Part shown: piece after piece, positions 3,792 through 42,278 of the stretch
Numbering within the stretch: position 1 is the stretch's first letter
Layout: each line of letters starts with the position of its first letter
Origin: Conyzicola lurida
GTDB lineage: Bacteria; Actinomycetota; Actinomycetes; Actinomycetales; Microbacteriaceae
Assembly: GCF_014204935.1 (NCBI RefSeq)
Contig: NZ_JACHMJ010000001.1
Span: forward strand, 1,798,001-1,862,000
Direction: 5' to 3'
Length of the DNA stretch: 64,000 nucleotides
Translations under genes and position numbers: made by a program
Notes under the pieces: model-generated
What the model was told of the DNA's origin: nothing
Databases searched by the model: none
What the model saw: only the letters and a program-made list of their open reading frames with translations

Positions 3792-3885
3792 CGGAAATTC
3801 AGGAAGTCTGCACACAAAAGCCCCGCGCCGCCCCGGGTTTTCGCGGGGGCAGCGTGGGGCGATTGCGTTTCTTCCTGAACTTCCG
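3792..3885. repeat. 94-bp REPIN-like palindromic element, copy 1
   Basis: The left arm is CGGAAATTCAGGAAG (3792-3806). The right arm (3871-3885) is its inverse with one mismatch (CTTCCTGAACTTCCG). The roughly 60-bp interior is unrelated to the other copies and can form its own GC hairpin (GCCCCGCG against CGCGGGGGC). It lies between the convergent ends of the TRIC gene and leuA. Total length is 94 bp, as in all six copies. Confidence 0.85.
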
Positions 3886-3919: not shown

Positions 3920-5710
<1,791 letters not shown>

Positions 5711-5839: not shown

Positions 5840-5933
5840 CGGAAATTCAGGAAGTCTGCACGCCGGCCGCGGTACGGGCGCCGAGAACTCGCCGACCTGC
5901 GGGGCGATGGATGGCGGACTTCCTGAATTTCCG
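5840..5933. repeat. 94-bp REPIN-like palindromic element, copy 2
   Basis: Perfect 17-bp inverted arms (CGGAAATTCAGGAAGTC and its complement). The exact midpoint is the dyad CGAG-AA-CTCG (5882-5891). The interior differs from copy 3 at only about 6 of 60 positions and in the same orientation. It sits between the divergent leuA leader and drrA, so a transcription-terminator role is unlikely for this copy. Confidence 0.9.
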
Positions 5934-5952
5934 AAACGGGGGTGCGCGCCAG

Positions 5953-6009
5953 CGCGTGACAGTGCGTGACAGCGTCCCGACAGCGGTCCGCTCGCACACT
6001 GGTCGGGAC
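5953..6009 (+). promoter_or_regulatory. Repeats and inverted repeat upstream of the drrA-like gene
   Basis: A tandem GCGTGACAGT/GCGTGACAGC pair (5953-5972) is followed by an inverted repeat, GTCCCGAC (5974-5981) and GTCGGGAC (6002-6009), just ahead of the AAGGAG ribosome-binding site (6013-6018). Position and symmetry suggest an operator/promoter for the exporter operon. The cognate regulator is not known; the large regulator at 7753-10644 is a candidate by proximity only. Confidence 0.4.
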
Positions 6010-6023
6010 ACGAAGGAGAAGCC

Positions 6024-6986
6024 ATGACACTGGCGATCGAGGCCCACGGCCTCACCAAGCGGTACGGGTCCACCCAGGCTCTTGCCGGCATCGACCTCGA
6101 GGTGGAGGAGGGGCGCGTTCTCGGCGTTCTCGGGCCGAACGGCGCGGGAAAAACCACGGCGGTCCGCATCCTCGCCACCCTGCTCACCCCTGACTCGGGC
6201 ACGGCGCGGGTCGCCGGCCACGACATCGTCACGGATGCGTCCGCGGTGCGCCGTTCGATCGGACTCACCGGACAGTACGCGAGCGTCGACGAGGATCTCA
6301 CCGGCCTCGAGAACCTCGTGATGATCGGCCGGCTGCTCGACCTCTCCACCCGCGCCGCCAAGGCACGGGCCGACGAACTGCTCGCCGAATTCGACCTCAC
6401 CGACGCGTCCAAGCGTCTGGCGAAGACCTACTCGGGCGGCATGCGGCGCCGCCTCGACCTCGCCGCGTCGCTCATCGGCCGACCGAGCGTCGTCTACCTC
6501 GACGAACCGACCACGGGCCTCGACCCGGGCAAGCGCGACGACGTCTGGGACATGGTGCGCGCGCTCGTCGCCAAGGGCACGACGGTGCTGCTCACCACCC
6601 AGTACCTCGAAGAGGCCGACGCGCTAGCCAACGAGATCACCGTGATCGACCACGGACGCATCATCGCCCACGACACCCCGCAGGCGCTTAAACGCCAGCT
6701 CGGAGGCCAGACCCTCGAGGTGCGGCCGGTGGATCCGCACGACCTCCCCCGGGTGCGCACCCTGCTCGCCCGGGTCGGAACCCGCGAACCCGAGCAGCCG
6801 GCGCCCGACCTGCTGTCCGTCCCCGTGTCCGACGACACCGCCCTCGCCCGGGTCGTCGGCGAGCTCGCCGCGGACGGCATCGCCGTCAGCGAACTCTCGC
6901 TGCGCCTGCCCAGCCTCGACGAGGTCTTTTACTCGCTCACCGGCCAGACCCAGTCGGCCGACACTCTGGAAGGAGCTGCGCTCTGA
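6024..6986 (+). CDS. ABC transporter ATP-binding protein, DrrA type
   Basis: This 320-residue cytosolic ATPase has Walker A GPNGAGKT at residues 37-44, the signature SGGM at about 137-140, and Walker B VVYLDEPTTGLDP from about 156. The C-terminal extension of roughly 90 residues is typical of the daunorubicin-resistance (DrrA) family, which powers export of drugs or lipophilic metabolites. A strong AAGGAG site lies 5 nt upstream of the ATG. Its stop overlaps the permease start (TGATG), so the two form one operon. The exported substrate cannot be read from the sequence. Confidence 0.92.
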   Translation: MTLAIEAHGLTKRYGSTQALAGIDLEVEEGRVLGVLGPNGAGKTTAVRILATLLTPDSGTARVAGHDIVTDASAVRRSIGLTGQYASVDEDLTGLENLVMIGRLLDLSTRAAKARADELLAEFDLTDASKRLAKTYSGGMRRRLDLAASLIGRPSVVYLDEPTTGLDPGKRDDVWDMVRALVAKGTTVLLTTQYLEEADALANEITVIDHGRIIAHDTPQALKRQLGGQTLEVRPVDPHDLPRVRTLLARVGTREPEQPAPDLLSVPVSDDTALARVVGELAADGIAVSELSLRLPSLDEVFYSLTGQTQSADTLEGAAL

Positions 6987-7756
6987 TGATCCGCGACTCG
7001 CTCATCCTCGCCCAGCGCTCCATCACCAAGATGGTGCGCAACCCCGAACAGTTCATCGACGTGACGGTGCAGCCGATCATCATGACGGTGCTCTTCGTCT
7101 ACATCTTCGGCGGCGCCGTCGCCGGAGACACGGCCGACTACCTGCCGTTCGTCCTGCCCGGCATCATCGTGCAGACGATCATGTTCACCTCGCTGACGAT
7201 CGGCGTGAATCTCAACACCGACATCCAGAAGGGCGTGTTCGACCGATTCCGGTCGCTGCCGATCGCCCGCTCCGCTCCCCTGCTCGGCGCCGTGAGCGGC
7301 GACATCGTGCGGCACCTCATCGCCATCACGGTGACGCTCGCGTTCGGTGCGATCATCGGCTTCCGCTTCGGAACAGACGTCGGATCGGTCATCGCCGGCG
7401 TGCTGCTGATGATCCTGTTCGCCGTCAGCCTGTGCTGGGTCTCCGTGCTCATCGGCATGCTCGCCCGCAGCTCGGGAGCCGTGCAAGGACTCTCGTTCCT
7501 CATCGTGTTCCCGCTGACCTTCGGCTCGTCGACCTTCGTGCCCGCGTCGACCCTTCCGGACTGGCTGCAGGGCTGGGTCGCGATCAACCCGGTGACCCAC
7601 GTCATCGAGATGATGCGCGGTCTGCTCTCGGGGCCGACCTTTATGGCGGCCGGTACGACGATCGGCGGCGAGATCGTCTGGGTGCTGGCCTCGTGCGTGG
7701 TGCTGGTCGCGGTGTTCTTCCCGCTCGCCACGTGGGCGTACCGCAAGAAAATCTAG
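6986..7756 (+). CDS. ABC-2 type permease, DrrB type
   Basis: This 256-residue protein has six predicted membrane segments and the ABC-2 pattern, including the conserved region before helix five (SSTFVPASTLPDWLQGWVAINPVTHVIEMMRGLL). It begins with MIRDSLILAQRSITKMVRNPEQF, the usual cytosolic coupling helix of DrrB permeases. It is paired with the ATPase immediately upstream and probably forms a two-plus-two exporter. Its stop codon overlaps the stop of the convergent regulator gene by 4 bp (7753-7756), so neither transcript has room for a separate terminator. Confidence 0.9.
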   Translation: MIRDSLILAQRSITKMVRNPEQFIDVTVQPIIMTVLFVYIFGGAVAGDTADYLPFVLPGIIVQTIMFTSLTIGVNLNTDIQKGVFDRFRSLPIARSAPLLGAVSGDIVRHLIAITVTLAFGAIIGFRFGTDVGSVIAGVLLMILFAVSLCWVSVLIGMLARSSGAVQGLSFLIVFPLTFGSSTFVPASTLPDWLQGWVAINPVTHVIEMMRGLLSGPTFMAAGTTIGGEIVWVLASCVVLVAVFFPLATWAYRKKI

Positions 7757-10644
7757 ACGGTCAGTCGCGAGAGCGACTCCAGTGCGGCAGAGCGGGTCGG
7801 GGCGGATGCCGCGGCCCGCTCGATCCCGTGCGCCCGGGCCGCCGCCTCGATCGCGATCACCTGCGGGGCGGTCGCGTCGTGGATCCCCACGATCGCTGTC
7901 GCGAGGTCGAGAGCCCGCACCGCCCCGGGGATGTCCCCGCGACTCACGGCCAGCGTGCCGAATCCCAGCGCGACACTCGCGATGACGGGGTGGTCGTGCG
8001 TGGCGAGGGCGGCGTCGGCCGCGGCGCGAAGAGCGGTCGCCGCGGCATCCACATCGCCCTTCTGGCTTGCCGAGTCGCCACGGGCGACGCCGATCATCGC
8101 GACCAGCTGCCCGGGCATTCGCGGCCACGACGAGGCGAGCTCCTCGACCCGGTCGAGCCGGGCGTCCGCCGCGTCGACGTCGCCGACGTGGAGATCGACG
8201 GTCGCCGACATCATGAGCGCCTGCAGGATCGTGCGCGCGTTGCCGCCCGCCTCGGCCGAGGCCAGTAGTGCGGCGGTGCGGGAGCGGGCCTCGTCGTGCC
8301 GGCGCATCCGGAGCAGGAGCGAGACGGAGAGACTCATCTGCTGGGCGAGGTCCCACTCCGTCGTGATCGGGCGCATGTGGTCGGTCGACGACGTGGCGGT
8401 CGCGAGTGCCTCGTCGAGCCTGCCGTGCAGGGTCAGCCATTCCGAGCGCATCTGCTCGGCGAGGGCGAGTCCCCAGAGGTCGCCGATCTCGGTGAAGCGC
8501 GCGACGGCGAGCTCGGACTCGGTGCCGAGCGCCTCGACGTCTCCCCGGTTCTGAGCGATCGCGGCGGCGAGCACGTGGAGGAGCGCGCACGGCCAGGCGC
8601 CCAGACCGAGATCCTCGCCCCAGGGGACCCGGACGTCGGACATCGCGCGCGGATCGGCTCCCACCTCCGCAAACGCCGAGAGCAGAACCGGCAGCACCTG
8701 GAGCAGGTCGTTGTCGCCGTCCGTCGCCGGGCCGACCGCGTCGAGCATCTGTGCGACGAGGTCCGGGGACTCCGACCGCGGGTCGAAGTCGTCGGCGTCC
8801 GCGGTGCCGCCGCCACCGAAAGCACGGGCGACGGGTGCGAGCGCACGGAGGAGTCGCGCGTCGTCTCCGTCGAGCCCCTCGGCGAGAGGGATCGCCGCCG
8901 CGAACCAGAGTCGGGTGTCGTCCTGCCGGTCGCGGATCGTCCAGTACCACCCGCACGCGGCGCAGAGCGCGACGGCCTCCCCCGCCATACCGGTGCCCGT
9001 GGCGTAGCGCAGGGCCGCCGCGATGTTGTCGTCCTCGGAGTCGAACCAGCCGATGGCGTCGTAGATGCCCGGACCACGCAGCAGGCGGTCGGTCTCGCCG
9101 GCCCGCTCGACGAGGTAGAGCACCTGGTCGCGGCGCGCGTCGGCGAGTTCTCCCCGCTCGGCGAGCTTGTCGATGCCGAACTCGCGGATCGTCTCGAGTG
9201 CCCGGTACCGGCCGCGCGAACGCCCGAGCAACGATTTGTCGACGAGAGAGTCGAAGACGGATGCCGCGGGCAGGCCCATCGCCCGGGCAAGACGCCGCGC
9301 GTCCGCCACGTCGATCCCGGCCGGGAACACCGCGAGGTGAGCGAGCGCACGCTGCTCGTCGGGCGTCAGCAGGCTCCAGCTCCAGTCGATCATGGCGCGC
9401 AGTGTCTGGTGCCGCGGGAGGGCCGTGCGGAACCCGCCGGTCAGCAACGTGAACCGGTCGTCGAGTCCCTCGAGCACCTCGGCGACGGACATCGTGCGCA
9501 ACCGGGCCGCGGCGAGCTCGAGGGCGAGCGGGAGGCCGTCCAGGCGCGCGCAGACGCGCGCGACGGCCTCGAGGTCTGCGGGGTCGAGCGGCTCCCCGCT
9601 CGCCGCCGCCGCGCGCTGGCGGAAGAGCTCGATCGCCGGGAATAGCTCCAGCGGGCCCGCGCTGCCGGCCGAGAGCTCGGCCTCCGTCGGGTGGCCGAGC
9701 GAGCCGAGGTTCACGAACGCCTCGCCGGGCACGCCGAGCGGTTCGCGGCTCGTGGCGAGGATACGCAGCGACGGGAGCGCCGAGAGCAGGTCGCCGGCCG
9801 TGCGAGCGGCCGCGTCGATGACGTGCTCGCAGTTGTCGAGCACGAGCAGCACCTCCCGGCCCGCGAGGGCGGCGAGCACGCGCTCGCGCGCTCCCGTCGG
9901 TTCGGCGGGAGCGTCGGCCGTGCGGAGCTCGCGACCGGTCGCCCCGAGAATGGCCGAGAGCACTTCGTCGGACCCGACCGGTGCGAGCTCGACGAGAATC
10001 GCCCCGGGGTGCGACGCCGCCGCGGCCAGCGCGAGACGCGTCTTGCCCGCGCCGCCCGGACCGACGACGGTCACCAGACGGTTGGCCGAGAGCTGGGCGG
10101 CGACGGCCGCCAGCTCCCTCTCCCGGCCGACGAGCTCGGTGAGCGGAGTCGGAAGCCCGTTCCTGACCGGGGCGGCGGGAACGGTGTTTCCCCCGAGACT
10201 GAGCGCCGTCGCGCGGTCGGCGCGCAGGTCTCGCTCGAACCAGTCGAAGTTCGCGGACGGCACCCACGGTTCCCCCGCCCAGCCCGCAAGAGCCCGGGAT
10301 GCGAGTTCGCCGCTGCCGCTAGCCGCTGCCTCGGCGACCAGGTCGGAGAAGACGAGCGCGTCGACGTCCGTGCGCGCGATGGCGAGGCGGTAGCCGCCGA
10401 CCGTCGACTCGATGGTGCCCGGCGGGAGTTGCGACCGCAGCCGGGAGACGATCGACTGCAGTGCCGCGCGGGTGTTCTCCGGGGCATCCGACGACCAGAC
10501 ATCCTCGGCGATGGCGCGGTAGCTGACGGCGGTGCCGGCGTCGACCGCGAGGCGGAAGAGCACGGCGAGCTGCATCGACCCCGAGACGGCGATCGGCTCG
10601 TCGTCGTGCTCGATGCGGAGACCGCCCAGAAGACCTATGCGCAC
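7753..10644 (-). CDS. AfsR/SARP-like transcriptional regulator with NB-ARC ATPase domain
   Basis: This is a 963-residue STAND-type regulator. Residues 1 to about 95 form an OmpR-like winged helix (LLGGLRIEHDDEPIAVSG, then AIAEDVWSSDAPENTRAALQSIVSRLRSQL). A short segment follows to about 150, where SARP proteins normally have a full bacterial transcriptional-activator (BTAD) domain, so that domain looks largely missing. The ATPase has Walker A GPGGAGKT at about 195, EVLLVLDNCEHV as Walker B, and the ILATSREPLGVPGE sensor motif. Residues from about 490 onward are alpha-helical, TPR-like. It probably binds DNA in a nucleotide- or ligand-dependent way. Convergent with drrAB, whose regulation is the obvious guess. 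Confidence 0.85.
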   Translation of the reverse strand: MRIGLLGGLRIEHDDEPIAVSGSMQLAVLFRLAVDAGTAVSYRAIAEDVWSSDAPENTRAALQSIVSRLRSQLPPGTIESTVGGYRLAIARTDVDALVFSDLVAEAAASGSGELASRALAGWAGEPWVPSANFDWFERDLRADRATALSLGGNTVPAAPVRNGLPTPLTELVGRERELAAVAAQLSANRLVTVVGPGGAGKTRLALAAAASHPGAILVELAPVGSDEVLSAILGATGRELRTADAPAEPTGARERVLAALAGREVLLVLDNCEHVIDAAARTAGDLLSALPSLRILATSREPLGVPGEAFVNLGSLGHPTEAELSAGSAGPLELFPAIELFRQRAAAASGEPLDPADLEAVARVCARLDGLPLALELAAARLRTMSVAEVLEGLDDRFTLLTGGFRTALPRHQTLRAMIDWSWSLLTPDEQRALAHLAVFPAGIDVADARRLARAMGLPAASVFDSLVDKSLLGRSRGRYRALETIREFGIDKLAERGELADARRDQVLYLVERAGETDRLLRGPGIYDAIGWFDSEDDNIAAALRYATGTGMAGEAVALCAACGWYWTIRDRQDDTRLWFAAAIPLAEGLDGDDARLLRALAPVARAFGGGGTADADDFDPRSESPDLVAQMLDAVGPATDGDNDLLQVLPVLLSAFAEVGADPRAMSDVRVPWGEDLGLGAWPCALLHVLAAAIAQNRGDVEALGTESELAVARFTEIGDLWGLALAEQMRSEWLTLHGRLDEALATATSSTDHMRPITTEWDLAQQMSLSVSLLLRMRRHDEARSRTAALLASAEAGGNARTILQALMMSATVDLHVGDVDAADARLDRVEELASSWPRMPGQLVAMIGVARGDSASQKGDVDAAATALRAAADAALATHDHPVIASVALGFGTLAVSRGDIPGAVRALDLATAIVGIHDATAPQVIAIEAAARAHGIERAAASAPTRSAALESLSRLTV

Positions 10645-10742
10645 GCGTCAACTCTAAGCCGCGTCGCGGGCGGGGCTGCGCGGTCGCCGCGGTCGCCTCG
10701 GTCGCCACCGCCGTCGCCCCTGCCCCGTCGCCCCTGCCCCGT

Positions 10743-10836
10743 CGGAAATTCAGGAAGTCTGTACGGCAGCCGCGGTGCGGGTGCCGAGAACTCGCCGATC
10801 TGCGGGGCGATGGATGGCGGACTTCCTGAATTTCCG
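10743..10836. repeat. 94-bp REPIN-like palindromic element, copy 3
   Basis: Perfect 17-bp inverted arms with central dyad CGAG-AA-CTCG at the midpoint. The interior is nearly identical to copy 2, while the other four copies share essentially only the arms. It lies between the start of the AfsR-like regulator (10644) and the 3' end of the FtsX-like permease gene (10871), both on the minus strand. Confidence 0.9.
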
Positions 10837-10870: not shown

Positions 10871-12274
10871 CTACTCCAGCGCCAGCGCGGCCACCGGCGT
10901 CACGCGGGTGGCGCGACGCGACGGCCCGACCGACGCCGCGACAGTGAGCACCGCGGCGAGCACGACTGTCCCGACGAGGAACGGCAGCGGCAGCCCGGGC
11001 ACGACGAATCCGGGGCTCCCGTTCACGCTGCCGAACATCGACTGCGCGCCCGCCCAGCCGTAGCAGAACCCGAGCACGAGGCCGACGAGGACCGAGGCTG
11101 CGGTGAGTTGGGCGCTCTCCGCGGTGATCATCCCCCGGACCTGCCGCCCGGTGAACCCGAGCGCGCGCAGCAGCCCGAGCTCGCGCGTGCGCTGCATGAC
11201 GCTGAGCGACAGGTTGTTCACCATGCCCACGGCCGCGATGACGGCGCTGAACCCCATCAGGATCGAGAACACGGCCAGCGTCACGGCGAACGCCTCGTCG
11301 ATGCCCTGGTAGTACTCCGGGTTCTCCCGCTGCGCGGCGGAGATGATGTTCTGGTACCCCTGCATCGCCACCGCGAACATCGTCACCAGCGTGATGCCGA
11401 TGACCAGACCGATCGTCGTACGCGAGGACCGTTCCGGGTACCGCACCGCGTTTTCCGCGGCGAGCCGGGCCGGCGCGCTGGAGCCGAGCAGACGACCGAC
11501 GAACCGCAGGGCGACGGGCATCACCAGGTGCGCGCCGACCACGAGCCCGGTGAACGAGAGCAGCCCGCCGACGATCCCGACGAGCACGGCGAGGGGTGTG
11601 ACCAGTCCGATCAGGACAGAGACGACGAGGATGACGGTGCCGGCGACGAACAGCCCGACAGCGACCGCGTTGCGGGCTTTCGACGCGGAGACCTCCGCCG
11701 CGCTCTGCTCGTGCGCCGCGCCCGTGGCCTGCATCGGCGAGACGACGAGCACCCGGCGCGACCCGACCCACGAGGCGATCCAGGTCGTGAGTACGACGGC
11801 GACGACGGGAAGCACGAGCACGGGCGACAGGTACGAGTAGGCGACGCCGGCGGGCATGAACCCCGTGGACGTGCCGACGGCGACGGTCGCGACGGTGACC
11901 GCGCTACCGACGAGGAACCCGGCCGCGGCACCGACCAGCCCGACGACGAGCCCCTCCCGCGCGACCGCGCGACGCTGCGTGCGCGCGCTCGAGCCGATCA
12001 GCCGCAGCAGCGCGATCGTGCGCGTGCGGCCCGCGATGATCGTCGAGAAGGTGTTCGCGGTGACGATCGCCCCGACGTAGACCGCGATCACGATGAAGAC
12101 GACCGCGACGATCCCGAGGAAGAACGCGACGGTGTCGCTCTCCCCCGTCACGCTGTCGGCGGCGAGGATCTGGCTGATCACGCCGACGAACTGCAGCACG
12201 GAGACACCGAACGCCGCGCTGAGGGCGGCGACGAGCACGCTCGGGCCGTGTTCCCCCGCGCTGAGCCGCATCAT
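10871..12274 (-). CDS. ABC transporter permease, FtsX/MacB-like
   Basis: This 467-residue membrane protein has two FtsX domains. The first half carries SVLVAALSAAFGVSVLQFVG and IVAVVFIVIAVYVGAIVTANTFSTIIAGRTRTIALLRLIGSS. The second has the matching set (FSAVIAAVGMVNNLSLSVMQRTRELGLLRALG). The repeated R-T-[RI]-x-[IL]-[AG]-L-L-R motif is the coupling helix of these exporters. The ATG at 12274 overlaps the stop of the ATPase gene by 4 nt, which fixes the start; an open frame continues further upstream but lies inside the ATPase gene. It likely acts in export of peptides or lipids, or in membrane stress response with the adjacent two-component system. Confidence 0.9.
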   Translation of the reverse strand: MMRLSAGEHGPSVLVAALSAAFGVSVLQFVGVISQILAADSVTGESDTVAFFLGIVAVVFIVIAVYVGAIVTANTFSTIIAGRTRTIALLRLIGSSARTQRRAVAREGLVVGLVGAAAGFLVGSAVTVATVAVGTSTGFMPAGVAYSYLSPVLVLPVVAVVLTTWIASWVGSRRVLVVSPMQATGAAHEQSAAEVSASKARNAVAVGLFVAGTVILVVSVLIGLVTPLAVLVGIVGGLLSFTGLVVGAHLVMPVALRFVGRLLGSSAPARLAAENAVRYPERSSRTTIGLVIGITLVTMFAVAMQGYQNIISAAQRENPEYYQGIDEAFAVTLAVFSILMGFSAVIAAVGMVNNLSLSVMQRTRELGLLRALGFTGRQVRGMITAESAQLTAASVLVGLVLGFCYGWAGAQSMFGSVNGSPGFVVPGLPLPFLVGTVVLAAVLTVAASVGPSRRATRVTPVAALALE

Positions 12275-13029
12275 GCCGCACGCTCCATGCCGAGCATCAG
12301 GCCCGAGATCTCCTCGGCGGTCGACTTTCCGAGGTCGCGCACGACCACGCCGTCGGCGAGGAACAGAATGCGGTCGGCATAGCTCGCCGCGATCGGGTCG
12401 TGCGTCACCATCGCGATGCTCTGTCCGTACTCGCGGCTCGCGGTCGCCAGCAGCGCGAGCACCTCGCGGCTGGTGCGCGAGTCGAGGTTGCCGGTCGGCT
12501 CGTCGGCGAACACCAGGTCGGGACGGGTGGCGAGCGCGCGGGCGATGGCGACGCGCTGCTGCTGCCCGCCTGAGAGCTCGTGCGGGCGGTGGCGCAGTCG
12601 CGCGCCGAGCCCGAGCGATTCGACGAGCTGGTCGATCCACTCGCGCTCCGCCGCCGACGGGCGTCGGCCGTCGAGTTCGAACGGGAGCACGATGTTGCCC
12701 TCGATGTCGAGCGTCGGGACGAGGTTGAACGACTGGAAGACGAACCCGACCCGACGCCGGCGCAGGGTGGTCAACGCGTCATCCGCCAGACTCGTGATCT
12801 CGGTGTCGCCGAGCCAGACGCGGCCCGTCGTGACGGAGTCGAGACCGGCCATGATGTGCATGAGGGTCGATTTGCCGGAGCCGCTCGGCCCCATGATCGC
12901 GGTGAATTCGCCGCGGCGGATCCCGATCGTGACGTCGCGCAGCGCGGCCACGCTGTTCGAGGCGGTTCCGTACGATTTGCCGAGCGATTCGACGCGGGCG
13001 ACGAGGTCGCTGTGTTCCTGAATTTCCAT
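12271..13029 (-). CDS. ABC transporter ATP-binding protein, MacB/LolD-like
   Basis: This 252-residue ATPase has Walker A GPSGSGKS at residues 47-54, a Q-loop [13 protein letters not shown], the signature [15 protein letters not shown] and Walker [17 protein letters not shown]. This is the MacB/LolD subgroup that partners FtsX-like permeases. The start codon region is unusual: the first five codons (ATG GAA ATT CAG GAA) coincide with an orphan copy of the arm of the 94-bp repeat family. No in-frame ATG or GTG lies between there and the first beta strand, so the start is probably correct. It precedes and overlaps its permease gene. Confidence 0.93.
13015..13027. repeat. Orphan arm of the 94-bp repeat family
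   Basis: TTCCTGAATTTCC (13 bp) matches the right arm of the 94-bp elements exactly. There is no left arm at the expected position near 12935. It overlaps codons 1-5 of the ABC ATPase gene. AT-rich 13-mers like this are unlikely to recur by chance in DNA this G+C-rich. Confidence 0.5.
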
Positions 13030-31318: not shown

Positions 31319-31691
31319 GGATCGAGCCCGTCGAAATCGCTCCCGCCGGCGGATCGAGCCTGTCGAAATCCTGTTTCGCTGGGCGCACCTCGCCCGCTCA
31401 ACAGGACGAAACGCCCGGTTCGCGCGCTCGACAGGACGCATCGGCGCTTTCGGCAGGACGCGTCCTGTCGTTCGTGTGTGCCGGGGCGGATGACGCTGGG
31501 TGCGACAGGGTTTCGACGGCTCAAACCCGCGGTCGCGATTCGGGCAGATCGCGCCTGTCGAAGTCTCTGGTCGGCGAAGGGTTTCGACAGGCTCGACCAG
31601 CGGGGCGGCATCGTCCCGAGCCGCGAAGGGTTTCGACAGACTCAACCCGCTCGGACAGCCCGACCCGCGAGGGGTTTCGACAGGCTCGACC
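31319..31691. repeat. Cluster of GTTTCGACAGGCTC repeats filling the rpsT-holA gap
   Basis: At least seven copies of a motif close to GTTTCGACAGGCTCGACC occur in both orientations. They begin near 31319 and 31351 (reverse), 31508 (forward, one base short), 31551 (reverse), and 31579, 31628 and 31672 (forward). Between them are variants such as CTCGACAGGACGC and a 14-bp palindrome CAGGACGCGTCCTG (31454-31467). There is no credible gene in 31257-31699. Similar motifs are scattered between genes in many bacteria, including Microbacteriaceae. Confidence 0.8.
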
Positions 31692-31699
31692 CGCTCGGG

Positions 31700-39480: not shown

Positions 39481-39574
39481 CGGAAATTCAGGAAGAGTGG
39501 GATGGCGCGGCCGGCACGCCCTCGGATCACCGGGGCACCGCCGGCGGGCGGGGGCCGCTCTTCCTGAATTTCCG
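39481..39574. repeat. 94-bp REPIN-like palindromic element, copy 4
   Basis: Arms CGGAAATTCAGGAAGAG and CTCTTCCTGAATTTCCG pair over 17 bp. The inner two bases of each arm differ from the other copies (AG/CT rather than TC/GA) but in a compensated way, so pairing is kept. The interior has GCCGGC/GCCGGC arms at symmetric positions. Located between the convergent arsR and pabB genes. Confidence 0.9.
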
Positions 39575-42037: not shown

Positions 42038-42131
42038 TGGAAATTCAGGAAGTCTGCCCCGTGCGCGATCGCAGGGCCGCGCGAAGTTGCGGGTGCGAGG
42101 CGGGGCGGGCGCGGGACTTCCTGAATTTCCG
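42038..42131. repeat. 94-bp REPIN-like palindromic element, copy 5
   Basis: Arms TGGAAATTCAGGAAGTC and GACTTCCTGAATTTCCG. The central dyad is weaker (CCGC/GCGG around the midpoint). It is separated by 53 bp from copy 6, the only close pair in the window. Lies between the convergent ends of pabC and cydC. Confidence 0.88.
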
Positions 42132-42184: not shown

Positions 42185-42278
42185 TGGAAATTCAGGAAGT
42201 CTCGCCGCCGCAGCCGGGCACCGGCGCGATAAATCGCGGCGTGGCGACGGGCCGCAGCACAGACTTCCTGAATTTCCG
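42185..42278. repeat. 94-bp REPIN-like palindromic element, copy 6
   Basis: Arms TGGAAATTCAGGAAGTCT and AGACTTCCTGAATTTCCG. The centre is the strongest dyad of the family, CGCGAT-AA-ATCGCG (42225-42238), exactly at the midpoint between bases 47 and 48 of the element. The right end is 34 bp from the cydC stop. Confidence 0.9.

Follow-up and report, generated by a model that had tools for sequence, protein, structure and literature searches.

Near-identical paired half-sites flank a drrAB-afsR block in Conyzicola lurida and are candidate DNA sites of a linked AbiEi-Vsr protein

RESULTS

Two near-identical elements flank the drrAB-afsR block

We analyzed a 64,000-nucleotide (nt) stretch of the 3.64-Mb genome of Conyzicola lurida (contig NZ_JACHMJ010000001.1, positions 1,798,001 to 1,862,000; hereafter the window, with coordinates counted from its first letter), in which two short elements in direct orientation, copy 2 (5840..5933, plus strand) and copy 3 (10743..10836, plus strand), bracket a drug-exporter/regulator block. 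This block consists of drrA (6024..6986, plus strand), encoding an ABC ATPase with a DrrA1-3_C domain (PF00005, 3e-30; PF13732, 5e-7); drrB (6986..7756, plus strand), encoding an ABC-2 membrane protein (PF01061, 2e-29); and a gene for an AfsR-like STAND/TPR regulator (7753..10644, minus strand) with Trans_reg_C, AAA/STAND, and TPR domains (PF13401, 1e-7; PF00486, 3e-4; PF13424, 4e-3). Its conserved left neighbor is leuA (2-isopropylmalate synthase; 3920..5686, minus strand), an open reading frame named by sequence recognition and position, with orthologues in 6/6 genomes of the genus. The conserved right neighbor, assigned from PF02687, PF00005, and synteny, is an FtsX-type ABC permease and ATPase (10871..13029, minus strand). 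A preliminary description of this DNA had placed the block between leuA and era, which holds on the leuA side, but the gene next to it on the right is the ABC pair and not era itself. Below, G000 denotes the window genome, other G numbers denote comparison genomes, and L numbers denote other element loci.

Both flanking elements have a 94-bp core with inverted 15-bp ends (half-sites at 5840-5854 and 5919-5933 in copy 2, and at 10743-10757 and 10822-10836 in copy 3), and both begin with CGGAAATTCAGGAAG and finish with CTTCCTGAATTTCCG. As the preliminary description had recognized, the two copies are near-identical: they share 88/94 positions (6/94 differ), and their 62-bp interiors are 90.3% identical, as against a mean of 44.3% (standard deviation 5.4%, maximum 56.5%) for the remaining 90 pairs that the fourteen 94-bp copies in G000 can form. 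The homology between them ends ~8 to 13 bp outside the core on either side. These data support the earlier suggestion that the flanking elements were recently duplicated, copies 2 and 3 having arisen as a pair by recent local duplication or conversion.

The window contains 15 half-sites (≤3 mismatches), versus 0.62 expected by shuffling (maximum of 5 in 100 shuffles), and six full copies, beginning at 3792, 5840, 10743, 39481, 42038, and 42185. Copy 1 (3792..3885) occupies the TRIC/leuA intergenic region, where an element or a pair of elements is also present in G001, G002, G005, and G262; copy 4 (39481..39574) corresponds to a site in G002 that likewise carries an element; and copies 5 (42038..42131) and 6 (42185..42278) form a pair with 53 bp between them (strand not assigned for these four). 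A lone half-site-like sequence, ATGGAAATTCAGGAAC, lies across the ABC ATPase start codon (13014-13028), with no partner seen. Genome-wide, G000 has about 22 copies, most of them at 1574-1957 kb. We considered whether they might be terminus-organizing sites (MatP/matS-like) and rejected this idea, as the cluster is offset from dif by 0.2 to 0.6 Mb in one direction (dnaA at 3393 kb, dif-like site at 1364 kb; the coarse GC skew is too weak for use).

The block is probably older than the elements that flank it

We compared the leuA/ABC interval across relatives of C. lurida. The gene order leuA-drrA-drrB-afsR-ABC is kept in five genomes from four other genera (G172, G262, G056, G282, and G269), with protein identities (74 to 84% for DrrA and DrrB, 49 to 59% for AfsR, and 80 to 88% for LeuA) that are compatible with vertical descent. 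In G262, G056, G282, and G269 the block sits at the leuA/ABC locus with no element at either junction, and in G172 an element is found at one junction only, on the afsR/ABC side. Since the same locus is occupied in other genera, including four genomes without junction elements, the block appears to be older than its flanking elements.

The congeners of C. lurida present different states. The block is absent from G001, in which the leuA/ABC interval contains exactly one element, of 81 bp (1215507-1215587) and with an unrelated interior; G003 has neither block nor element at this junction; G005 is missing not only the block but also most of the ABC genes; and in G002 the position is taken by 14.3 kb of other DNA. 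A relative lacking the block and retaining a single junction element, which the preliminary description had proposed to look for, is thus found in G001, and G003 offers a relative lacking both. The 14.3-kb segment of G002 (G002:C1:1090780-1105085) is an apparent sugar-acid catabolism segment, with mandelate racemase-like enzymes, a tripartite transporter, and regulators, and it has leuA on one side and three elements on the other, at the position where G000 has drrAB-afsR.

An alternative is that the block is a composite mobile cassette, with drrAB-afsR as cargo between two elements; the cassette would have been acquired at the leuA/ABC site, from which site-specific or homologous recombination of the two direct copies could remove it. 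The near-identical direct flanks would fit such a cassette, as would the empty site with one repeat in G001 and the sporadic occurrence of the block (the AfsR-like regulator was found in 17/299 genomes of the family, in 10 genera). However, the cargo does not always travel with the repeats, given the four genomes that hold it at the same locus without elements; the regulator is no nearer to any single sampled donor (≤60% identity); and where the block lies elsewhere (G178, G094, G249, G012, G156, and G062), it has no flanking element of the detectable kinds. We therefore regard the cassette as unlikely, and entry of the block by recombination between elements, as the preliminary description had entertained, is not supported. 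Its companion proposal, that the block can leave in this way, fits the state of G001, because recombination between direct copies would delete the block and leave one element; such a deletion is possible. The preliminary description had also named a contrary situation, in which the block would be present in all relatives and the flanks missing in some. This situation is approached, in that the flanks are missing in four block-bearing genomes, but the congeners are without the block.

Our preferred reading is that the drrAB-afsR block is an old resident of the leuA/ABC interval that was probably lost in close relatives. On the sequences compared, the simplest account would be loss of an ancestral block in the congeners, together with recent duplication or conversion of copy 2 or copy 3 in the G000 lineage.

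The flanking elements belong to a family with quantized spacing

Copies 2 and 3 belong to a family in which paired half-sites of 12 to 16 bp (TCGGAAATTCAGGA ... TCCTGAATTTCCGA), inverted with respect to each other, enclose unrelated interiors. A scan over 84,980 species returned at least 120 stretches. Among the matches listed, all loci but one belong to Microbacteriaceae or to less precisely named actinobacterial bins, and the single exception, a 76-bp match in a Eubacterium bin, is probably due to chance. With that match excluded, the 98 distinct exact elements among the matches listed fall into three length classes, namely 79 to 81 bp (40 elements), 89 to 93 bp (46 elements), and 100 to 103 bp (12 elements), with no intermediate lengths among these 98. 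The classes thus step by about 11 bp, i.e., approximately one turn of DNA. No element was found in viral contigs.

The outer 12 bp of the elements are nearly invariant, and 338/360 half-sites are paired. Arm-to-arm complementarity extends for only about 20 bp before reaching background, and folding of the interior is barely better than that of shuffled sequence. Congeners carry elements at the same intergenic regions (e.g., TRIC/leuA in G000, G001, G002, and G005), with interiors that have no recognizable kinship. Conserved ends and conserved spacing combined with a free interior would be the pattern expected of a bipartite protein-binding site.

We also considered that the elements might be bidirectional transcription terminators or RNA hairpins that share sequence by chance. 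Their hairpin potential is strong (z of about -6 to -7), and for many of them a gene end is no more than about 50 bp away, both of which would suit a terminator. Against this, the arms pair no better than background past the first 20 bp or so and the interior is barely structured, 11-nt length steps make little sense for a loop, some elements lie inside coding sequences, the bias in gene orientation is weak, and the stems match the lineage of a linked nuclease (see below), such that this explanation is very improbable. Two other candidates were rejected, namely an RNA element, given the interior without structure (an Rfam search of the window gave no match), and an autonomous transposon with the same ends, given that there are almost no lone half-sites.

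Variants of the architecture were also seen. In genus g36 (L054, L055; G114, G170, G220, and G261), up to 24 related sites have a near-constant length of 91 bp, contain several TCAGGA/TCCTGA motifs, and have CGTGCACG at the center, apparently a more elaborate variant. At least three consecutive half-sites occur at L157:7374-7554, L121:4095-4363, L149:2246-2360, and L132:6916-7018, possibly as nested or slipped copies. Separately, a GAAGGGTTTCGACAGGCTCGACC-type repeat in the window (31566-31698), with three tandem copies 44 to 49 bp apart, is unrelated to the elements.

The elements are linked to a gene for a predicted AbiEi-Vsr protein

In G000, G001, and G002, the element cluster is centered on a gene for an AbiEi-type winged-helix protein with a predicted Vsr/EDxHD-fold nuclease domain (G000:C1:1793608-1794714; distances, 3.3 kb to the left edge of the window and 9 kb to copy 2), with one element upstream of its start and one overlapping its 3' end. 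In G000, the gene lies beside what we take, from sequence, to be a DsbA-like gene and a glycyl-tRNA synthetase-like gene. At 11 further element loci with a homologue of this gene, an element was present 97 to 115 bp upstream in 11/11 cases, and one at the C-terminal end was detected in 10/11 (L122 being the exception by strict detection). In most species (G000; also L039 and L229), the C-terminal reading frame of the gene enters the downstream element.

Among 14 homologues, Pfam matches were obtained to PF18741 (REase_MTES_1575) in 10/14 and to PF13338 (AbiEi_4) in 8/14 (best 1.5e-3); REase_MTES_1575 has been described as a Vsr-fold nuclease domain (PMC3710099). In an AlphaFold2 model of the G000 protein (predicted local distance difference test score, 87), residues 1 to 187 align to AbiEi (6y8q, Z 7.3), and residues from about 190 to 288 match 3hrl (Z 8.3), the I-Bth0305I catalytic domain (3r3p, Z 8.0), and Vsr (1cw0, Z 6.5); Z scores near 8 are modest, and several independent Vsr-like entries top the list and span the entire domain. 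E195, D222, H239, and D246 are invariant across the 14 sequences and, as we read them, stand in the order of the EDxHD motif (motif family described in PMC3943268). The protein thus combines an AbiEi_4 winged helix and an AbiEi C-terminal-like fold with a Vsr-like fold bearing the conserved E, D, H, and D of EDxHD/Vsr-type nucleases, and on the model we describe it as an AbiEi winged helix-turn-helix (wHTH) N-terminal half joined to a predicted Vsr/EDxHD-fold nuclease domain. No copy of the nuclease was found in phage or plasmid collections.

We further examined the flanks of 48 distinct loci of the nuclease family, drawn from many genera and reaching down to about 31% identity, for inverted repeats of 76 to 106 bp. 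Such a repeat was present on both sides of the gene at 30/48 loci, and there the upstream and downstream stems agreed at ≥9/12 bases in all 30 and at ≥11/12 bases in 29, as compared with an average of 12.2 loci with matching stems (maximum 18) in a shuffled-partner control. The stems differ by lineage (GGAAATTCAGGA, CGGCAATTCAGGCC, CTCCACAATTCAGG, CATCATTCAGGAA, CAGAAATGCAGGAG, TCCGAAATGACGGA, and others), and stem similarity tracks protein similarity (Mantel r 0.29, p 0.0095). A random-position control was positive at 1/300 positions, and that one has the stems of the nuclease locus of G001, a locus present in the sequence sampled. In G114, G170, and G220 (genus g36), the detector used did not resolve elements beside the nuclease homologues.

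Nonflanking elements also gather around the gene: across nine genomes, 33/61 such elements lie within 50 kb of a nuclease gene, versus 2.2 expected. This clustering is individually significant in G000, G001, and G002, and G026, which has two nuclease genes, shows an element cluster at each.

Element interiors can be native host DNA

In-frame elements within housekeeping genes allowed us to compare element interiors with homologues free of the element. In a uridine-kinase-like gene (G000:C1:3502025-3502597), the interior of the element codes for a conserved APGFDREIEEAVPDA stretch, and homologues without the element also have this stretch, differing by only a few residues in length at one end. 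In TlyA, the left half-site substitutes native residues with no gap, the interior is native, and six extra residues are present at the right end only. In xylulokinase, the interior aligns to a solved enzyme with small gaps. These native interiors argue against the jump of a 94-bp unit into the three genes. In MutM and SMC, the element lies in or near variable loops, and insertion is possible there.

In-frame elements recur in the same gene in several species, and they encode (S/T)EIQE or GNSG at one end, paired with (S)PEFP at the opposite end. That of the uridine-kinase-like gene is conserved in four genomes (L045, L120, L140, and L143), and others occur in SMC (L109, L119, L150, and L182), MutM/Fpg (L109, L113, and L159), TlyA (L115 and L160), xylulokinase (L111 and L141), an HrpA-like gene (L183), an ABC gene (L171), and a TilS-like gene (L176).

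The near-identical pairs that we noticed are all neighbors: copies 2 and 3 (5840/10743), 1796594/1796721, 1074679/1074835 in G002, and two in other genomes. Judged by these sequences, local duplication and in-place formation of sites both appear to occur.

These observations bear on the possibility that the elements are mobile 94-bp units of the REPIN or miniature inverted-repeat transposable element (MITE) kind, for which the linked nuclease would serve as a transposase in trans, with decaying interiors and selected ends. Inverted doublets with a characteristic spacing and a variable interior, bracketing a linked enzyme gene, are indeed what is seen in REPIN/RAYT systems (PMC3116915), and near-identical pairs do exist. 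However, the recognizable near-copies are neighbors and none is dispersed in G000, the same intergenic sites are occupied across congeners, the coding interiors of three host genes are native with no 94-bp insertion, a Y1 transposase was found in 0/26 genomes, and we found no case of a cleanly empty site accompanied by target duplication. Mobility of this kind consequently seems doubtful to us, though somewhat less so than the cassette.

Between congeners, elements coincide with indel breakpoints at four places; many breakpoints have no element, and the local element density is high, so that we consider the association suggestive and do not claim it. A 6.2-kb segment of G000 (G000:C1:1786622-1792821), with UDP-glucose dehydrogenase-like and glycosyltransferase-like genes, is missing in G001 and G002 and starts 6 bp from an element.

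DISCUSSION

We think it likely that the paired half-sites are the cognate DNA sites of the linked AbiEi-Vsr protein, that the drrAB-afsR block is old, and that its flank was made recently. In such a system, the protein would contact its two half-sites from the same face of the DNA, so that only spacings about one turn apart would be retained; it would bind as a dimer or larger oligomer, through its wHTH halves, and spacings off by half a turn would not be kept. The upstream element copy may regulate the nuclease gene, and the nuclease domain would act at or near the sites. New sites would form mainly near the gene, either when half-sites are placed on both sides of DNA already present or through short local duplications, and the 94-bp unit itself would not jump. 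In G000, the second flanking element of the block would have been made recently from the first. More speculatively, nicking followed by short-patch copying could spread half-sites near the gene.

Several observations weigh against this reading. No sampled congener besides G000 has the block, meaning that loss in several lineages must be assumed, and G000 may instead have regained the block from an unsampled donor through homology in leuA and the ABC genes. At 18/48 sampled nuclease loci, no both-side repeat was found at the threshold used, and in G084, G148, and G199, which have few elements each, the elements are not clustered around the gene. The family of the nuclease-like protein is broad and multi-copy, with members in 187/299 genomes, and the domain matches of the G000 protein itself fall below Pfam cut-offs, its assignment resting on homologues and the model. 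Binding and cleavage by the protein are predicted activities, and any movement of the sites is hypothetical.

A bolder form, which we put forward tentatively, is that the elements are written rather than inserted: the nuclease would install half-sites around native DNA in a fixed helical phase, preferentially near its own gene. Nicking and short-patch copying from resident sites would then amount to a gene-conversion form of homing, in which spread would be confined to the 12- to 16-bp ends, and the intervening DNA would stay native whether or not it is coding.

If the cognate-site reading is true, it would assign a role to the widespread AbiEi-REase_MTES_1575 proteins of unknown function, and it would explain the in-frame peptides (EIQE/GNSG ... 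PEFP) in housekeeping proteins such as SMC, MutM, and TlyA. As for the drrAB-afsR block, the case shows that a set of genes can be bracketed by near-identical direct repeats without necessarily being mobile. Searching the open-access literature, we found no description of this system, which is weak evidence of absence; the combination of element and nuclease is apparently undescribed.

Comparison with known systems

With MITEs, the elements share a short length, a mostly intergenic position, and terminal inverted repeats. Unlike MITEs, they have conserved ends and spacing around unrelated interiors (44% mean identity, one G000 pair excepted); moreover, we found no parent transposon, few lone half-sites, no clean empty site, and no target-site duplication.

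The N-terminal half of the linked protein (residues 1 to 187) resembles the AbiEi antitoxin/regulator through its match to 6y8q. It differs from AbiEi in being fused to a nuclease domain, in having G000 neighbors that are not an AbiEii toxin, and in that its supposed sites are many and genome-wide.

The predicted catalytic fold and the E-D-H-D residues are those of the EDxHD/Vsr-like homing endonuclease I-Bth0305I, which dimerizes on an unusually long target of nearly 60 bp (PMC3943268). In contrast to I-Bth0305I, the protein described here has an AbiEi-type N-terminal half, its gene is free-standing between two supposed sites rather than placed in an intron, and its nuclease activity is predicted.

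REPIN/RAYT systems, in which doublets of repetitive extragenic palindromic (REP) sequences accompany a REP-associated tyrosine transposase (PMC3116915), come close in arrangement: both have inverted conserved ends, a preferred spacing, a variable spacer, lineage-specific sequence, and a linked enzyme gene that is bracketed. The enzyme here is instead a predicted AbiEi wHTH and Vsr-fold protein, lengths are quantized into three classes, and there are about 20 copies per genome, which crowd around the enzyme gene and whose interiors can be native host DNA. The Y1 (HUH) tyrosine transposase (PF01797) was absent from all 26 genomes tested, element-rich ones included (5/14 control genomes were positive), and because this defining enzyme is absent we do not file the system under REPIN/RAYT. 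If our reading is true, it would represent a second, unrelated solution to the same arrangement, in which an enzyme and its short paired sites stay matched as lineages diverge, with the quantized spacing as an extra feature that renders the DNA-protein geometry directly testable.

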